From: Rheinheimera sp. 4Y26 | GTDB taxonomy: Bacteria; Pseudomonadota; Gammaproteobacteria; Enterobacterales; Alteromonadaceae | Direction: 5' to 3' | Length of the DNA stretch: 64,000 bases | Assembly: GCF_025245835.1 (NCBI RefSeq) | Contig: NZ_JAOBWS010000005.1 | Location: 62,001 to 126,000, forward strand | In this document: positions 25,858-32,425 of the stretch, one piece after another | Layout: every line of letters begins with the position of its first letter | How positions within the stretch are numbered: position 1 is the first letter of the stretch | Program-made: the position numbers and the translations under genes | The notes under the pieces: model-generated | Databases searched by the model: none | What the model saw: only the letters and a program-made list of their open reading frames with translations | What the model was told of the DNA's origin: nothing

Positions 25858-25942
25858 ATTTCAGCCGATGCGCTGCAGCAGCTTGTTGCAGTGCTCTGCT
25901 GGCGCTGATGCCAATAGCCATGTCAGGCTGATTGCGTAAAGC

Positions 25943-25978
25943 AAAAAGGAGCAAACCTCAGGGAATGCTCCTTTTTTA
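25943..25978 (+). terminator. Terminator after ihfA
   Basis: An 11-bp stem AAAAAGGAGCA/TGCTCCTTTTT (25943-25953 with 25966-25976) with a 12-base loop is followed by T residues, ending the pheST-ihfA transcript. The other bases between ihfA and the next gene carry the promoter described at 26158. Confidence 0.88.
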
Positions 25979-26157
25979 TTGGCTTATCGATTGACTTCCA
26001 CAGCAGCTTATCTGCGAAAGCCAGACTCAGGCACGTTAACTTTGGTTTTACCCTGAGTTTTATTCAGACGTTTTATCTCAGTCTCAATGCAGCCAGATTC
26101 AGCATGTTTTTCTGCAATTCTCAGCTTCAGTATTTTTCAATAAATTTAATCAATCAT

Positions 26158-26187
26158 TGATCCAAATTGCTGGTTAGACTGTAAAGC
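26158..26187 (+). promoter_or_regulatory. Candidate ECF sigma (RpoE/ChrR singlet-oxygen type) promoter
   Basis: TGATCC (26158-26163), then exactly 18 bases, then TAAAGC (26182-26187), some 33 bases before the first gene of the photolyase operon. Rhodobacter sphaeroides sigma-E (ECF11 group) promoters have a TGATCC -35 and a TAA-beginning -10 with this spacing, from general knowledge. No good sigma-70 pair is apparent nearby. The sigma factor and ChrR genes are not in the window. Confidence 0.5.
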
Positions 26188-26219
26188 ATTGTATCCGCGA
26201 CAGTAATTAAAGAATCATT

Positions 26220-27161
26220 ATGACTATTCAGATTGGCATCAGCGCCTGTGTACTGGGTGAAAAAGTGCGTTATGACGGCGGTCATAAAAATTCGCCATTT
26301 TGCTCCGATGTACTGGCCAACTTCGTATCTTATGTACCGGTATGTCCTGAGCTGGCGATAGGTCTTGGCTCACCAAGGCCAGCCATCCGCCTGATGCAAA
26401 AAGCGGATGGTGAAGTCCGCCTGGTGAACAATAAAGACAGCAGCATTGATTTTACTGAAAAAATGCACGCCTTCAGCGACGCTAAACTACCGTCTTTGCA
26501 GCAGCTGTCTGGTTATATTGTCTGTGCTAAGTCCCCCAGCTGTGGTATGGAGAGGGTGCGGTTGGTGAATGAAAAAGGTGAGTTACAGGGCAAAATTGCC
26601 ACCGGATTATTTACCCGTCGTTTGATGCAGGCTTACCCCTGGTTGCCGGTGGAAGAAGATGGCAGGTTGCTGGACGTTGAGCTTAGAGAAAACTTTATCA
26701 CCCGGGTTTATGCCATTCATGCCTGGCAACAGCAGATGCAGGATGGTTTTAGCATTGGTAAGCTGGTGAGTTTTCACAGCCAGTTTAAATTTTTGATCAT
26801 GGCCCATCACCCGGGGGCTTACCGTGAGCTGGGCCGGTTGGTGGCCAATGCCAAACTATTCAGCCCGGATGAGCTGGCAAATCGTTATTTACTGGATTTT
26901 AGCCGGGCGCTGAAACAACAGGCTACGCGCAAACAACAAGCCAATGTACTAATGCACCTGCAGGGCTTTTTCAAACAGATGCTGTCAGCCGATGCCAAAC
27001 AGGAATTGTTGCAGCTTATTCACCAGTACCGGCTGGGGCATGCACCTTTGCTGGCGCCACTGACTTTATTAAAACACCATCTGCGTCAGCATCCGCAGCC
27101 TTATCTGGCCGCGCAAAGATACCTGCAGCCGTTCCCGGCTGAGCTGGGTTTAAGAGCGTAA
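26220..27161 (+). CDS. DUF523-DUF1722 protein (TudS-like desulfidase domain plus YbgA domain)
   Basis: 313 residues in two domains. The N-terminal DUF523 part (1-150) has the three cysteines that hold a [4Fe-4S] cluster in TudS 2-thiouracil desulfidase: C10 in S-A-C-V-L-G, C42 in V-C-P-E, C108 in S-P-S-C-G. The C-terminal part (about 190-310) is DUF1722, the E. coli YbgA domain, which also sits directly before phr. A desulfidase role on thiolated pyrimidines is inference. It leads a six-gene operon and ends 4 bp before phrB. Confidence 0.82.
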   Translation: MTIQIGISACVLGEKVRYDGGHKNSPFCSDVLANFVSYVPVCPELAIGLGSPRPAIRLMQKADGEVRLVNNKDSSIDFTEKMHAFSDAKLPSLQQLSGYIVCAKSPSCGMERVRLVNEKGELQGKIATGLFTRRLMQAYPWLPVEEDGRLLDVELRENFITRVYAIHAWQQQMQDGFSIGKLVSFHSQFKFLIMAHHPGAYRELGRLVANAKLFSPDELANRYLLDFSRALKQQATRKQQANVLMHLQGFFKQMLSADAKQELLQLIHQYRLGHAPLLAPLTLLKHHLRQHPQPYLAAQRYLQPFPAELGLRA

Positions 27162-27165
27162 CGTT

Positions 27166-28596
27166 ATGTCTGGCTTTTCAATTTTATGGTTACGTAACGA
27201 TTTACGTTGTTATGACAACGCCGCGCTGCACAGTGCTGTTGAGCTGGGACTACCGGTGCTTGCCGTTTTTATTGCCACGCCAAAAAGCTGGCAGCAACAT
27301 CAGATGGCGCCGATCAAGCAGGATCTGATCCGACGCCGGGTAGAGGCGATGCAACAAGAGCTTGCCGCCTGTGGAGTGACTTTATGGGCGATTGAAGGCT
27401 CAGATTATCAGCACTGTGCCGGGCAGCTGGCCACTCTTGCCCGGCTTGGTGCTGTGGCTTTGTTTGCGCAAGCAGAATATGAACTGCGTGAACAGCAAAG
27501 AGATGCAGCTGTCAGTTCCAAACTGGCACAAATGGGGATCCCTTGTCATTTTGTTGATAGCCAGTGTTGTTTTGCGCCAGGCACAGTGCTGAGTAAAACT
27601 GCTGAAGTTTATAAAGTATTTACGCCTTTTAAGAAAACCTGGCTGCAAAAACTGCAGGCTGCGCCCGTGGTCTGTTTACCAAAACCCAAACACCTTGCCG
27701 CGCTGGCGCTGACTTTACCTTCCCCCCTTGCGCCTATGCTGCCTGGTGATAACAGCTCTGCTGCTTATCCGGTGCAGGAGCGGCAGGTGCTCGACATGCT
27801 CCGCAGTTTTTGTACTGAGCGGGTACAGGATTACCAGAAGCTTCGCGACTTTCCGGCTAAACCAGGCACTTCGGGTTTATCGCCTTATCTTGCTATTGGT
27901 GTGCTGTCGCCACGCCAGGCGGTCGCCAGATTGTTGCTGGAGCAAGGCGACAGCTGTTATCAGGAGGGCTCAGGTGCGGCTGTGTGGCTCAGTGAGTTGA
28001 TTTGGCGCGAGTTTTATAAACATATTCTGGTCGCTTATCCAAAATTGATTAAACACCAGCCATTTCAGCAAGATACCGCAGCTATTGTTTGGGGCAACAA
28101 TAAAAAATGGTTTCAGGCCTGGTGTGAGGGCCGCACTGGTTACCCTATTGTCGATGCGGCCATGCGCCAGTTGAATCAAACCGGCTGGATGCATAACAGG
28201 CTCAGGATGATAGTGGCCAGTTTTCTGGTAAAAGATTTACAAATCGACTGGCGCTGGGGCGAAGCTTATTTTATGTCCAGGCTGATTGATGGTGATTTTG
28301 CCGCTAATAATGGCGGCTGGCAGTGGGCCGCTTCCACCGGCACCGATGCTGCGCCTTATTTCCGTATTTTTAATCCGGTGACTCAAAGCGAAAAGTTTGA
28401 TCCTAATGGCGATTTTATCCGTTGTTTTGTCCCTGAGCTGGCAAAGTGCAACAACAAAGAGGTGCACTGGCCTCATCCGTTGCCGAAGTCGGTCAATTAC
28501 GTGAAACCTCTGGTGGACCATGCCAAAGCCAGGCTCAGAACCCTTGAGATCTTTAATGCGGTGAAAAAACCGGCAGGAGTGCTAAGCAGTGATTGA
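27166..28596 (+). CDS. phrB: Deoxyribodipyrimidine photolyase, class I CPD type
   Basis: 476 residues, typical length. N-terminal alpha/beta antenna domain (1-135, starting I-L-W-L-R-N-D-L-R) and C-terminal FAD domain with the signature N-N-G-G-W-Q-W-A-A-S-T-G-T-D-A-A-P-Y-F near 395. Repairs cyclobutane pyrimidine dimers with blue light. It overlaps the next gene by 8 bp, which starts at a GTG within its last codons, so it is co-transcribed with the lipid genes downstream. Confidence 0.95.
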   Translation: MSGFSILWLRNDLRCYDNAALHSAVELGLPVLAVFIATPKSWQQHQMAPIKQDLIRRRVEAMQQELAACGVTLWAIEGSDYQHCAGQLATLARLGAVALFAQAEYELREQQRDAAVSSKLAQMGIPCHFVDSQCCFAPGTVLSKTAEVYKVFTPFKKTWLQKLQAAPVVCLPKPKHLAALALTLPSPLAPMLPGDNSSAAYPVQERQVLDMLRSFCTERVQDYQKLRDFPAKPGTSGLSPYLAIGVLSPRQAVARLLLEQGDSCYQEGSGAAVWLSELIWREFYKHILVAYPKLIKHQPFQQDTAAIVWGNNKKWFQAWCEGRTGYPIVDAAMRQLNQTGWMHNRLRMIVASFLVKDLQIDWRWGEAYFMSRLIDGDFAANNGGWQWAASTGTDAAPYFRIFNPVTQSEKFDPNGDFIRCFVPELAKCNNKEVHWPHPLPKSVNYVKPLVDHAKARLRTLEIFNAVKKPAGVLSSD

Positions 28597-29059
28597 TTTT
28601 GCCGAACATAACGCACAAAGCACGCAAACTTCGTTGCGTTTGCAGCAATTTGTCGATTTTTATAATGCGTTATCAGCCAATAATCTGAACCATTTAAGCC
28701 ATTTGTATCATCAGGATGTAGTTTTTGTTGATCCTGTGCATCAGATTAAAGGGCTGCAGGGGCTGCGGAATTATTTTGAGCATGCTTATGAAAGGCTCAA
28801 CAGCTGTCATTTTACGCCTGTGCAGCAAGCAGGCACGGTTGAGCATGGTTTTATCAGCTGGCGTATGAGTTTAAGTCATCCGGCTATCAATAAAGGCGAG
28901 CTGTTTGAAGTAGAAGGTTGCTCTCAGCTGCGCTGGCATCAGGATGGTCGCATTATTTACCATCGTGATTATTACGATTTAACCGACATGGTGTACCGGC
29001 ATATTCCGCTGCTTGGCTGGCTGACAGCGAAAGTGAAACAAAAAATGGCGCAAGACTAA
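28589..29059 (+). CDS. SnoaL-like (NTF2-fold) protein of the photolyase-Cfa operon
   Basis: 156 residues from a GTG start overlapping phrB. The layout of a small cone-shaped NTF2 fold is seen: N-terminal helix F-V-D-F-Y-N-A-L, then L-Y-H-Q-D-V-V-F-V-D-P-V-H, typical of SnoaL-like proteins, and a C-terminal D-Y-Y-D-L-T-D-M segment. In many proteobacteria such a gene stands between phr and COG2907/DUF1365/cfa genes. Its biochemical role is unknown; a polyketide-cyclase-like or ligand-binding role is only a family guess. Confidence 0.75.
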   Translation: MIDFAEHNAQSTQTSLRLQQFVDFYNALSANNLNHLSHLYHQDVVFVDPVHQIKGLQGLRNYFEHAYERLNSCHFTPVQQAGTVEHGFISWRMSLSHPAINKGELFEVEGCSQLRWHQDGRIIYHRDYYDLTDMVYRHIPLLGWLTAKVKQKMAQD

Positions 29060-29070
29060 GGAACGAATTG

Positions 29071-30324
29071 ATGCAAATTGCAGTAATAGGCGGCGGTATC
29101 GCCGGCATGATGAGTTGGTATTTATTAAAACCTGAGCATCAGGTGACCTTGTTTGAAGCCAATGATTACCTGGGCGGTCACACTGCCACTGTGGATGTGT
29201 GTGTTGGCGGAAGAGATTACGCGATAGACACTGGTTTTATCGTATTTAATAACTGGACTTACCCGCTATTTAACCGTTTCCTGGCAGCGCTGAAAGTACC
29301 GTTTCAGCCAACAGAAATGAGCTTTTCAGTAAAAAAACCAGCAGCAAATCTGGAATACAACGGCAATACCTTCTGGAGTTTATTTGCGCAAAAACGCAAT
29401 CTGCTGCGCCCGTCGTTCTGGCGGATGCTCAGACATATTGTGCGTTTTAATAACACCTCCAAGCAGCTGCTGGCGGAAGATAGTCCGGATCTCGATTTAA
29501 AAATGGATGACTTTTTGCACAAATATGGTTTTGGTAAAGAGCTGAGGGATCATTATCTGTTACCGATGGGCGCAGCCATCTGGTCTTCAGGTCTGACCGA
29601 AATGCCGGAGTTTCCGCTCAGGTTTTTCCTGCAGTTCTTTAAAAACCATGGGCTACTGAATATCACAGACAGGCCACAGTGGGCGGTCATTAAAGGTGGT
29701 TCGCGCCGTTATGTCCAGGCCATGTTGCAGCAGCAAGGCTCGGACGGCATCAGGTTAAATAGCCCGGTGCGTGAAGTTCGTCGTTTTGAAGACAAAGTGG
29801 CTATTACGCTGGCAACGGGTGAAACCGAATATTTTGATCAGGTGATTTTTGCCTGTCACAGTGACCAGGCGTTAAAGCTGCTGGCAGATGCCAGCCTGGC
29901 TGAGCAGCAGGTACTGGGTGGCATTGCTTATCAGGACAATACTGTAGTGCTGCATACCGACAGCAGTATTTTGCCAAAACGCCGTGCCGCCTGGGCGTCT
30001 TGGAATTATCTGCTGGATGACAGTTCAAAGCAAAAAGCGACACTCAGCTACAATATGAATATATTGCAAGGCATTGAAAGTGAACATACTTTTGTTGTTT
30101 CACTGAATGCAGGCGATAAAATCGACGCAAAAAAAATACTGAGAACTTTCAGTTACGCCCATCCGGTGTATAACCATTTTACGATGCTGTCGCAGCAGCG
30201 CCGCCATGAAATCAATGGCCAGAACCGCAGTTATTTTTGTGGTGCTTATTGGTATAACGGTTTTCATGAAGATGGTGTGCGAAGTGCTGTCGATGTCGCT
30301 GCGATGCTCGGAGTGAAATTCTGA
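29071..30324 (+). CDS. FAD-dependent oxidoreductase (COG2907, flavin amine-oxidase-like)
   Basis: 417 residues from the ATG at 29071 (the TTG one codon earlier is not needed), with AAGGA upstream. The dinucleotide-binding loop I-G-G-G-I-A-G opens the protein and E-A-N-D-Y-L-G-G-H follows, as in amine-oxidase/desaturase-like flavoproteins. Its stop overlaps the DUF1365 ATG (TGATG). Homologues next to Cfa-type methyltransferases belong to fatty-acid modification sets, so it probably oxidises or desaturates an acyl chain; this is inference from context. Confidence 0.82.
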   Translation: MQIAVIGGGIAGMMSWYLLKPEHQVTLFEANDYLGGHTATVDVCVGGRDYAIDTGFIVFNNWTYPLFNRFLAALKVPFQPTEMSFSVKKPAANLEYNGNTFWSLFAQKRNLLRPSFWRMLRHIVRFNNTSKQLLAEDSPDLDLKMDDFLHKYGFGKELRDHYLLPMGAAIWSSGLTEMPEFPLRFFLQFFKNHGLLNITDRPQWAVIKGGSRRYVQAMLQQQGSDGIRLNSPVREVRRFEDKVAITLATGETEYFDQVIFACHSDQALKLLADASLAEQQVLGGIAYQDNTVVLHTDSSILPKRRAAWASWNYLLDDSSKQKATLSYNMNILQGIESEHTFVVSLNAGDKIDAKKILRTFSYAHPVYNHFTMLSQQRRHEINGQNRSYFCGAYWYNGFHEDGVRSAVDVAAMLGVKF

Positions 30325-31073
30325 TGCAGTCAGGGCACGCCTGGTATCAGGGCCGGGTTGGACATCAGCGTTATATGCCAAAATCACATGGTTTTGGCTA
30401 TAACGTCAGCTATTTATGGCTTGATTTACAACAACTTGGCACATTGGCGGAGTTTGGGCGCTATTTAGGGCTGGAAAAGTTTGCGGCCTGGAGTTTCAGG
30501 CGCAGTGATTACCTGAAAGGTGCTGAGGATTTGGCGCAGGCGGTGAAGGACAAGGTGAAAGTGCTGGGCGGCGATAAAGAAGTGCAGCAGGTATTTTTGT
30601 TAAGTCCGCTGGCGAACTTTGGTGTTTTTTTTAGTCCTTTGACTTTGTATTACTGCTATGCTGATTCTAAGCCATTGTATTTACTTGCAGAAGTAAGTAA
30701 TACCCCCTGGAACGAACGGCATTATTACCTGATCCCGTTAAATGATTCAGGTGATACCGAGTTTTGTCATGATAAAAACTTTCATGTGTCGCCCTTTAAT
30801 CCGCTCGATATGCAGTACCAGTGGAAAATTGCCGCGCCTGATGTGGCCTGTCAGCTCGGTATCAGTAACTGGCGCCGCGGCGAGCGGGTGTTCAGTGCCT
30901 GGCTGGATTTGACCCGGCATGAGCTTAACCGCCGCAGTCTGCAACAGCAGCTGATCCGCACGCCATGGCAGAACGTACAAGTAGTGTTTCGAATATATTG
31001 GCATGCACTGAAGCTACTCGCAAAACGACTACCAGTGTATGACCACCCGCAGCCTAAGGAACCTTTGTTATGA
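30324..31073 (+). CDS. DUF1365 protein of the photolyase-Cfa operon
   Basis: 249 residues matching DUF1365 (COG3496): the start Y-Q-G-R-V-G-H-Q-R-Y-M-P-K-S-H-G-F-G-Y and the K-N-F-H-V-S-P-F-N segment are the conserved features. No membrane segment is evident. Function unknown, but the gene almost always lies beside the COG2907 oxidoreductase and a Cfa-family methyltransferase. It overlaps its neighbours on both sides (TGATG and ATGA), pointing to stoichiometric production with them. Confidence 0.85.
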   Translation: MQSGHAWYQGRVGHQRYMPKSHGFGYNVSYLWLDLQQLGTLAEFGRYLGLEKFAAWSFRRSDYLKGAEDLAQAVKDKVKVLGGDKEVQQVFLLSPLANFGVFFSPLTLYYCYADSKPLYLLAEVSNTPWNERHYYLIPLNDSGDTEFCHDKNFHVSPFNPLDMQYQWKIAAPDVACQLGISNWRRGERVFSAWLDLTRHELNRRSLQQQLIRTPWQNVQVVFRIYWHALKLLAKRLPVYDHPQPKEPLL

Positions 31074-32314
31074 CATTATCAATTGCCGGATCCTCGGTAC
31101 TGGCCAATCTGGGTATGCTGGATAAAATCTGCCGTAATCTGATGCTGAGTTATCTGGCCAGTCTGCAGCAGGGTTGTATTGAACTGGTTGAAGGCCACGA
31201 CAAACAATTGCTGGGTGACCCTCATGCTGATTTACGCGTCACGCTCACTGTGGTTGATCCTGCTTTTTATCAAAAGCTGGTGCTGGGCGGCTCAGTAGGC
31301 GCAGGGGAATCTTATATTGAAGGGCACTGGCGCACCGATAATCTGACGGCGCTGGTGCAGATTTTTGCCCGCAATATGGCGTTGCTGGATAAGCTGGAGT
31401 CGGGCTGGGCCCGGCTCAGCAAACCGGCGCTGAAGTTATTAAACTGGCGTAACCGCAACTCAGTTGCGCAGTCAAAAAAGAATATTTCTGCCCATTATGA
31501 TTTGGGTAACAGCATGTATCAGCTGTTTCTCGATAACAGCATGATGTATTCAAGCGCTGTGTACCCATCCCCTGAAGCCAGTCTGGCTGAAGCGCAGCAA
31601 CACAAACTGAAGCTGATTTGCGACAAGTTACAGCTCAAAGCCTCGGATCATCTGATAGAAATTGGCACCGGCTGGGGCAGTCTGGCTATTTTTGCTGCCC
31701 GCAATTATGGCTGTAGGGTCACCACCACCACTATTTCACGTGAGCAGTTTGACTACGCCAAAAAACAAATTGAAGCGGCCGGTCTGTCTGAACAAATCAC
31801 CTTGTTGTTTCAGGATTACCGTGAACTGAGTGGTCAGTACGACAAGCTGGTGTCGGTAGAAATGATTGAAGCCGTGGGCCACGAATACCTGGACGGTTAT
31901 TTTGCCAAGTGTTCGTCTTTACTCAAACCAGAAGGTCTGATGGTACTGCAGGCCATTACCATTGCCGATCAGCGGTATGAGTTTTATCGTCGTGAAGTCG
32001 ACTTTATTAAAAAGTTTGTGTTCCCGGGCGGATGTTTACCTTCGATGCTGCGGATGACTCAGGCCGCAGCTCAACATACCGATCTGGTGATCCGCCATGT
32101 GCAGGATATTGGTCTGGACTACGCCCGCACTTTAGCCGACTGGTGTAATAACTTTATGGCAGCCCGGGATGCAGTGCATCAGCTGGGCTATGACGACCGT
32201 TTTGTCAGGCTCTGGCACTTTTACCTGTGTTATTGTGAAGGTGGCTTTTTAGAGCGCGCCACCAGTGCAGTGCATCTGGTGTTGACCAAGCCGGGGCATC
32301 GTCAGCCGGTTTAA
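31070..32314 (+). CDS. Cfa-family SAM-dependent fatty-acid methyltransferase (probably not a canonical cyclopropane synthase)
   Basis: 414 residues; overlaps DUF1365 by ATGA. SAM-binding loop E-I-G-T-G-W-G (197-203) and the C-terminal F-P-G-G-C-L-P-S segment mark the Cfa family, which methylates double bonds of membrane phospholipid acyl chains. Compared with E. coli Cfa, bicarbonate ligands E239 and Y317 are kept (E267, Y351), but C139 becomes S162 and H266 becomes Q294 (L-Q-A-I-T-I instead of L-L-H-T-I-G). These changes, and the flavoprotein partner, suggest a methyl-branched, methylene or furan fatty acid rather than a cyclopropane product. Name cfa is used loosely for such proteins. Confidence 0.85.
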   Translation: MTLSIAGSSVLANLGMLDKICRNLMLSYLASLQQGCIELVEGHDKQLLGDPHADLRVTLTVVDPAFYQKLVLGGSVGAGESYIEGHWRTDNLTALVQIFARNMALLDKLESGWARLSKPALKLLNWRNRNSVAQSKKNISAHYDLGNSMYQLFLDNSMMYSSAVYPSPEASLAEAQQHKLKLICDKLQLKASDHLIEIGTGWGSLAIFAARNYGCRVTTTTISREQFDYAKKQIEAAGLSEQITLLFQDYRELSGQYDKLVSVEMIEAVGHEYLDGYFAKCSSLLKPEGLMVLQAITIADQRYEFYRREVDFIKKFVFPGGCLPSMLRMTQAAAQHTDLVIRHVQDIGLDYARTLADWCNNFMAARDAVHQLGYDDRFVRLWHFYLCYCEGGFLERATSAVHLVLTKPGHRQPV

Positions 32315-32425
32315 AACAGCTGATTTACCACTGGCGCTGAACTATGTTATAACTTTCTCAAGCTAAACAATTAGTTCGGTCCGGTGGGACCGTTACAGGT
32401 GGTTCTGTATTATGGATCCTGTACT

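Follow-up and report, generated by a model that had tools for sequence, protein, structure and literature searches.

Gene content of the locus

The 64,000-nucleotide stretch of Rheinheimera sp. 4Y26 analyzed here (contig NZ_JAOBWS010000005.1, positions 62,001–126,000; hereafter the window, whose numbering is used throughout) contains six co-directional genes on the forward strand at positions 26220–32314, each touching or overlapping the next. The first is preceded by a sequence that resembles the target promoters of RpoE–ChrR sigma factors (extracytoplasmic function group 11, ECF11). The control and likely function of this gene set are the subject of this report.

The first gene (26220–27161) encodes a TudS/DUF523 domain (Pfam PF04463, 127 bits) fused to DUF1722 (PF08349, 140 bits), the combination that characterizes the RudS family, and we refer to it as rudS. 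After a gap of 4 bp it is followed by phrB (27166–28596), which encodes a photolyase of the class I cyclobutane pyrimidine dimer type (NCBIfam NF007955, 591 bits against a cut-off of 506). A small SnoaL-like protein (28589–29059; PF12680, SnoaL_2, 58.5 bits) is encoded next, from a GTG start that overlaps phrB by 8 bp. The fourth gene (29071–30324) specifies an FAD protein of the amine oxidase fold (PF01593, Amino_oxidase, 89 bits), a candidate for the acyl desaturase UfaD; its start is set at the ATG at 29071, and the list of open reading frames has a TTG at 29068. The last two genes encode a DUF1365 protein (30324–31073; PF07103, 230 bits), a candidate for the furan-forming oxygenase UfaO, whose gene overlaps that of the flavoprotein by 1 bp, and a Cfa-like S-adenosylmethionine methyltransferase (31070–32314; PF02353, CMAS, 286 bits), a candidate UfaM whose gene overlaps the preceding one by 4 bp. 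Coordinates and Pfam domains thus agree with the gene order, with overlaps or near contact, given in a preliminary description of this DNA; 'COG2907', its term for the flavoprotein, is that description's own label.

A conserved promoter-like sequence upstream of rudS

The preliminary description also placed a TGATCC-N18-TAAAG sequence 33 bases before the first start codon, and the bases are as stated: TAAAG ends at 26186 and the ATG is at 26220. With the spacer counted as in papers on gammaproteobacteria, the site reads TGATCC-N16-TGTAAA (26158–26185, forward strand), comprising a predicted −35 element TGATCC (26158–26163) and, 16 bp past it, a predicted −10 element TGTAAA (26180–26185), a variant of CGTA. 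It is one base off TGATCC-N16-CGTA, matching 9 of 10 positions of the ECF11 target-promoter pattern (T for C). The window has a single copy of TGATCC-N16-TGTAA, and 100 dinucleotide shuffles have none. The looser TGATCC-N16-[CT]GTA is found in two places, where 100 mononucleotide shuffles predict 0.24, and the second copy, at 30952, lies within the DUF1365 coding sequence.

Conservation across the genus is stronger evidence for a promoter than these shuffle counts. TGATCC-N16-TGTAA is found 59–70 bases before the rudS start in all 21 genus members with upstream sequence (one further locus, whose contig ends at the gene, was left out), with both TGATCC and TGTAA identical in 21/21, and only 1.6% of 372 control windows for the rudS set match at 9 or more of 10 positions. 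Across 17 distinct genus sites, which were picked by the pattern itself, the spacer is mostly variable and TGATCC and TGTAA are kept.

An ECF11-type sigma factor and ChrR in the genome

A genome search with a broad sigma-70/ECF model, which also takes non-ECF sigma factors, returns 15 matches over the cut-off. One of these, on contig C3, adjoins and overlaps chrR, which is next in order. The ChrR protein scores 167.4 bits against the TIGR02451 family model (cut-off 124.5); its Cupin_7 domain is over the cut-off and its zf-HC2 domain slightly below (21.8 versus 22.2). The best solved-structure match of this anti-sigma factor is Rhodobacter ChrR (2z2s), with which its cupin H-x-H-x3-E and N-terminal HxxxCxxC motifs align; these presumably contain the zinc-binding residues. 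The sigma factor itself is closest to Rhodobacter RpoE (2q1z, E = 1.5e-41), followed among ECF factors by SigW (2e-14), a placement made among solved structures. The pair therefore has the features of ECF11 systems, a sigma factor nearest Rhodobacter RpoE next to a ChrR-type anti-sigma factor with zinc and cupin domains. The preliminary description had made its reading depend on such a sigma factor, and both its gene and rudS are present in 22/22 genus genomes. A stand-alone double-cupin protein encoded on contig C31 (L001:1477-2172) was considered as a regulator and set aside, its ChrR match covering the cupin part only (63.7 versus 124.5 bits).

Other sites of the same type

Sites of the form TGATC[CTG]-N16-CGTA also precede a gene for a photolyase-related protein of the DPRP family in 21/22 genus genomes and folX in all seven genomes where a search at E = 1e-25 detects that gene, the remaining 15 of 22 giving no match. 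The folX gene (PF02152) of the genome studied here carries a perfect TGATCC-N16-CGTATAA 76 bp upstream and is followed by a DUF1731 epimerase-type gene (L257:943-2321, contig C3). Control windows matching at 9 or more of 10 positions amount to 0.0% for folX, 0.7% for DPRP and 1.0% for rpoE. The rpoE–chrR genes have a site of their own, AGATCT-N16-CGTATAA (L003:331-360), which matches at 8 of 10 positions; across the genus, 14/22 rpoE–chrR loci reach 8 and 6 reach 9, a score of 8 being reached by 9% of control windows, and the rest show a weaker −35 by eye. One locus was counted with a score of −1 and by eye has TGAACC-N16-CGTATAA.

The −10 element upstream of rudS is always TGTAA in the genus, whereas the other targets carry CGTA. 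As a separate observation, the rpoE–chrR promoters of the genus keep CGTA and have a mostly weak −35 (AGATCT, CAATCT). The rudS promoter is the reverse case, with TGATCC kept and TGTA at the −10. In this genome alone, TAATCC-N16-CGTATACA lies 60 bp upstream of a DUF3429 gene (L251:423-902, contig C11), a candidate regulon member.

The genome-wide search for rpoE–chrR and further sites that the preliminary description proposed was fruitful for the former. The list of sites with up to two mismatches proved too loose to serve as a regulon, with 1180 + 1117 places, compared with 826 + 777 when the pattern is reversed; among about 100 listed places, there were 5 intergenic sites in 30 loci and 3 in 20 further stretches (one shared). 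CTAG is rare, so an earlier reversed-pattern control is not comparable.

Association of the promoter with ChrR between genomes

We examined 50 named genomes for ChrR, drawn from 80 loci that are the best 80 of 568 relatives; among these 80, the named sequences nearest to rudS come from Rheinheimera. ChrR is over the family cut-off in 32/50. Sequences upstream of rudS were scored with a matrix trained on 21 rpoE–chrR promoters, of which two are published sites and 19 were picked as good matches, several from the same genera; the published SO_3386 site of Shewanella was excluded from training. A score of at least 7.2 (the 95th percentile of 1600 shuffles) is found in 19 of the 32 genomes with ChrR and in none of the 18 without it (Fisher p = 1.2e-5, relatedness ignored), and a score of at least 10.8 (the 99th percentile) in 14/32 versus 0/18. 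In the subset with all six genes, the lower threshold is reached in 15/22 genomes with ChrR versus 0/4 without (p = 0.02).

A related arrangement is seen upstream of rudS at three Aeromonas loci (L150, L163, L176), where the spacer of TGATCC-N17-CGTAT is longer by one base and rudS is separated from phrB by a MerR gene. The N17 sites of L150 and L163 were seen by eye and left out of the 19/32 count.

Assessment of RpoE–ChrR control

The regulator pair is present, genus members keep the promoter and have sites of its type at other targets, and the promoter score goes with ChrR; the interpretation of the preliminary description, promoter control of the RpoE–ChrR type, is therefore supported. We consider it very probable that the six genes are a photo-oxidative-stress operon of the known RpoE–ChrR (ECF11) regulon.

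Several observations weigh against this assignment: (i) the −10 element of rudS is TGTA, and the published sites have CGTA; (ii) the promoter of rpoE–chrR itself is weak by the counts given above; (iii) 13 of the 32 ChrR-positive genomes score below 7.2 upstream of rudS, two of them narrow misses at 7.1; (iv) in the six-gene subset the association has p values of 0.10 and 0.11 at stricter cut-offs; (v) the lineages in the association test are not independent and (vi) the same bases, read as TTGATC-N17-TGTAAA, look like a weak sigma-70 promoter. The last point raises the alternative that the housekeeping sigma-70 factor drives the operon and that the likeness to ECF promoters is incidental. Each hexamer does match its sigma-70 counterpart at 4 of 6 positions in the window, but the −10 departs from the sigma-70 hexamer in having no A at position 2 and no T at position 6, and a promoter scanner finds 0 sigma-70-like sites. 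The T that would begin the −35 hexamer is not kept either, being T, G or C among the 17 distinct genus sites, and the scoring of the 21 genomes did not demand it. Since the conserved parts are TGATCC and TGTAA and the score goes with ChrR, we regard housekeeping control as improbable.

Boundaries of the predicted transcription unit

Upstream of the operon, a probable terminator of an HU/IHF-type gene was identified by eye at 25948–25977 on the forward strand (GGAGCA, a 12-base loop, TGCTCC and a T run), which sets the HU/IHF-type unit apart from the six genes. A terminator scanner with a loop limit of 8 bases, against the 12 of this loop, found 0 terminators. Downstream, the Cfa-like gene is followed by a gene for a GAF-GGDEF-EAL protein that starts at 32384 or 32429.

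Within phrB, the sequence TGATCC-N16-CGTT (28398–28423) could be read as a separate ECF11 promoter for the lipid genes, in which case the six genes would form two units. TGATCC-N16-CGT recurs at the same place in many relatives, as would suit such a promoter; the bases, however, encode the photolyase motif FDPxGxFIR, and a perfect TGATCC-N16-CGTAAA stands at this place in three Serratia genomes without a ChrR match. Coding constraint therefore suffices to explain the internal site, which we reject as a coding mimic, and a two-unit arrangement appears very unlikely. The FDPxGxFIR motif is a practical trap for promoter scans, in which it mimics ECF11 promoters.

Possible MerR/LitR-type control in relatives

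In each of the four tested genomes with all six genes and no ChrR (Photobacterium aquimaris, Oceanimonas smirnovii, O. baumannii and Oceanisphaera psychrotolerans), rudS and phrB are separated by a MerR gene, and TGTACA boxes occur in pairs upstream. In Pfam, the Oceanimonas MerR protein matches in its MerR part, with no match to a B12 domain; domain and context suggest that it is a relative of LitR/CarH. In Pseudomonas, a class II LitR has been connected with the light induction of phrB and ufaM (PMC9758184), and a light repressor of the MerR/LitR type might likewise control the operon in Rheinheimera. Here, however, there is no T[GA]TACA box in 25858–26219, and the MerR query matches in 0/22 genus genomes at E = 1e-8, though at E = 1e-5 it matches 28 of the 80 named loci, the weakest at 3e-24. 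Neither the MerR regulator nor the T(G/A)TACA-N12-TGTACA boxes of a LitR-type regulon were thus detected in the genus, and none of the 16 loci of the Rheinheimera–Alishewanella–Arsukibacterium part (L122–L136, L172) gives a MerR match or has paired boxes, although two have a single box. A diverged MerR gene elsewhere in the genome could escape the query; even so, we consider control of this operon by such a repressor extremely unlikely.

The MerR query also matches 8/8 Aeromonas and 6/7 Vibrio loci, and ChrR is found in 4/5 tested Aeromonas and 5/5 tested Vibrio genomes, so the two kinds of control are not mutually exclusive. Rheinheimera and its relatives have a predicted ChrR-controlled sigma promoter where MerR and the paired boxes are absent, and likewise before folX. 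In Pseudomonas, folE and folM, partners of the pterin gene folX, are light-induced with the LitR system (PMC9758184). A tentative idea, to which we give somewhat less than even chances, is that the six-gene photodamage operon changed masters between lineages, in either direction, between a LitR-like light switch and a ChrR–sigma switch that responds to damage products, and that the invariant TGTAA −10 would set a separate induction threshold. The operon would also offer a natural comparison of light-receptor and damage-sensor control over one set of genes. The spacer of the published Shewanella SO_3386 promoter contains TTGTACAAG by eye (PMC4336711), a possible LitR-type box within an ECF11 promoter; if it is one, LitR-type and ECF11 control would be joined at a single site.

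Gene products and proposed mechanism

The RudS protein matches the TudS structure 6z92 (E = 2.8e-6), and its cysteines 10, 42 and 108 are invariant in five aligned genus members. RudS enzymes are TudS–DUF1722 fusions that de-modify 4-thiouridine (s4U) in tRNA and are often encoded in light-responsive operons (PMC11417400). The 'possible thio-base repair' of the preliminary description is better termed RudS-type de-modification of tRNA s4U. PhrB matches a solved photolyase (1dnp, E = 5.5e-136).

For the lipid genes, the preliminary description proposed membrane lipid change, and the lipid role can be put more precisely as a candidate furan-fatty-acid pathway. In Rhodobacter, UfaM methylates cis-vaccenate, UfaD is RSP1091, UfaO is RSP1090 and contains DUF1365, and furan fatty acid synthesis requires all three (PMC7380195); RSP1091 is annotated as 'amine oxidase, flavin-containing' (PMC5507510). 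The genes for a flavin oxidoreductase, a DUF1365 protein and a S-adenosylmethionine-dependent acyl methylase stand together here, and their families fit UfaD, UfaO and UfaM; family and synteny suggest that the flavoprotein is the UfaD orthologue. The Cfa-like protein does not reach the cut-off of the NCBIfam model for cyclopropane synthase (290 versus 400 bits) and is the sole CMAS match over the cut-off in the genome (C29:93466-94266). No second canonical Cfa gene was found by this search, and a separate cyclopropane synthase seems absent from the genome.

In the mechanism that we propose, ChrR would keep the sigma factor inactive until singlet oxygen or organic peroxides free it, with singlet oxygen, rather than other oxidants, as the probable signal. 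RNA polymerase with the sigma factor would then start at TGATCC-N16-TGTAAA and transcribe rudS–phrB–snoaL–ufaD–ufaO–ufaM as one unit, which would thus be induced by light or singlet oxygen. PhrB would repair pyrimidine dimers using light, RudS would take sulfur off tRNA 4-thiouridine, a near-UV target, and UfaM, UfaD and UfaO would convert membrane cis-vaccenate to a furan fatty acid that is itself destroyed by singlet oxygen. In Rhodobacter, the sigma factor is not fully activated unless the furan-acid genes are present, and mutants without them are poor at raising sigma-E activity (PMC6852236). By analogy, a feedback loop on sigma activity via furan acids may operate here too. A RudS-family tRNA desulfidase, a photolyase and a candidate furan-lipid pathway would in this way be tied to one predicted singlet-oxygen switch in Rheinheimera.

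Comparison with known systems

We take SO_3386 (ybgA) of Shewanella oneidensis to be a DUF523–DUF1722 gene. The six-gene set is the Rheinheimera counterpart of the RpoE2 operon SO_3386–SO_3374, as judged from the published Shewanella description: ybgA is the first gene, phrB (SO_3384) and cfa (SO_3379) follow and the promoter is TGATCC-N16-CGTAAT (PMC4336711). Plasmid-borne rpoE2 raised SO_3386 transcription as measured by RT-PCR, and the photolyase-related gene SO_4169, which by its name would belong to the DPRP family, is a published RpoE2 target (PMC4336711). The two operons differ: in Shewanella, ybgA and phrB are separated by SO_3385 and the operon continues as far as SO_3374 (PMC4336711), whereas in Rheinheimera rudS adjoins phrB, the Cfa-like gene is the last of the set and the −10 reads TGTAAA.

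The Pseudomonas syringae locus PSPTO_1121–1114 likewise combines phrB, a flavin amine oxidase gene and cfa, with an aGATCC-N16-CGTA site, and its phrB promoter is induced in singlet-oxygen and tBOOH (tert-butyl hydroperoxide) assays (PMC5507510). There, however, the promoter stands before phrB, the locus includes a short-chain dehydrogenase gene, and no rudS is seen as first gene in the part of the paper available (PMC5507510). The core regulon of the Rhodobacter sphaeroides sigma-E/ChrR system (RSP1087–1091 and RSP2143–2144) shares the homologous sigma and anti-sigma factors, photolyase and the UfaM, UfaD and UfaO families, but its genes are spread over several loci and its regulon table, as accessible, has no rudS. 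A Vibrio sigma–ChrR response with TGATC-N18-CGTAT is also in print. In the LitR regulon of Pseudomonas putida and P. mendocina, phrB and ufaM are strongly and folE and folM mildly light-induced, with folX in the same region, but control is by a light-regulated repressor on TGTACA-N12-TGTACA and not by a sigma factor (PMC9758184).

Among the matches listed in the literature searched, subscription papers being outside its scope, no study of ChrR in Rheinheimera appears, the sole co-mention being, by title, a heavy-metal review; nor does any listed match link folX to a ChrR regulon, the sole co-mention concerning E. coli azoR by title. Operons of this class, with their sigma factor and promoter, have already been published for Shewanella and Pseudomonas; the present case extends that known system to Rheinheimera.

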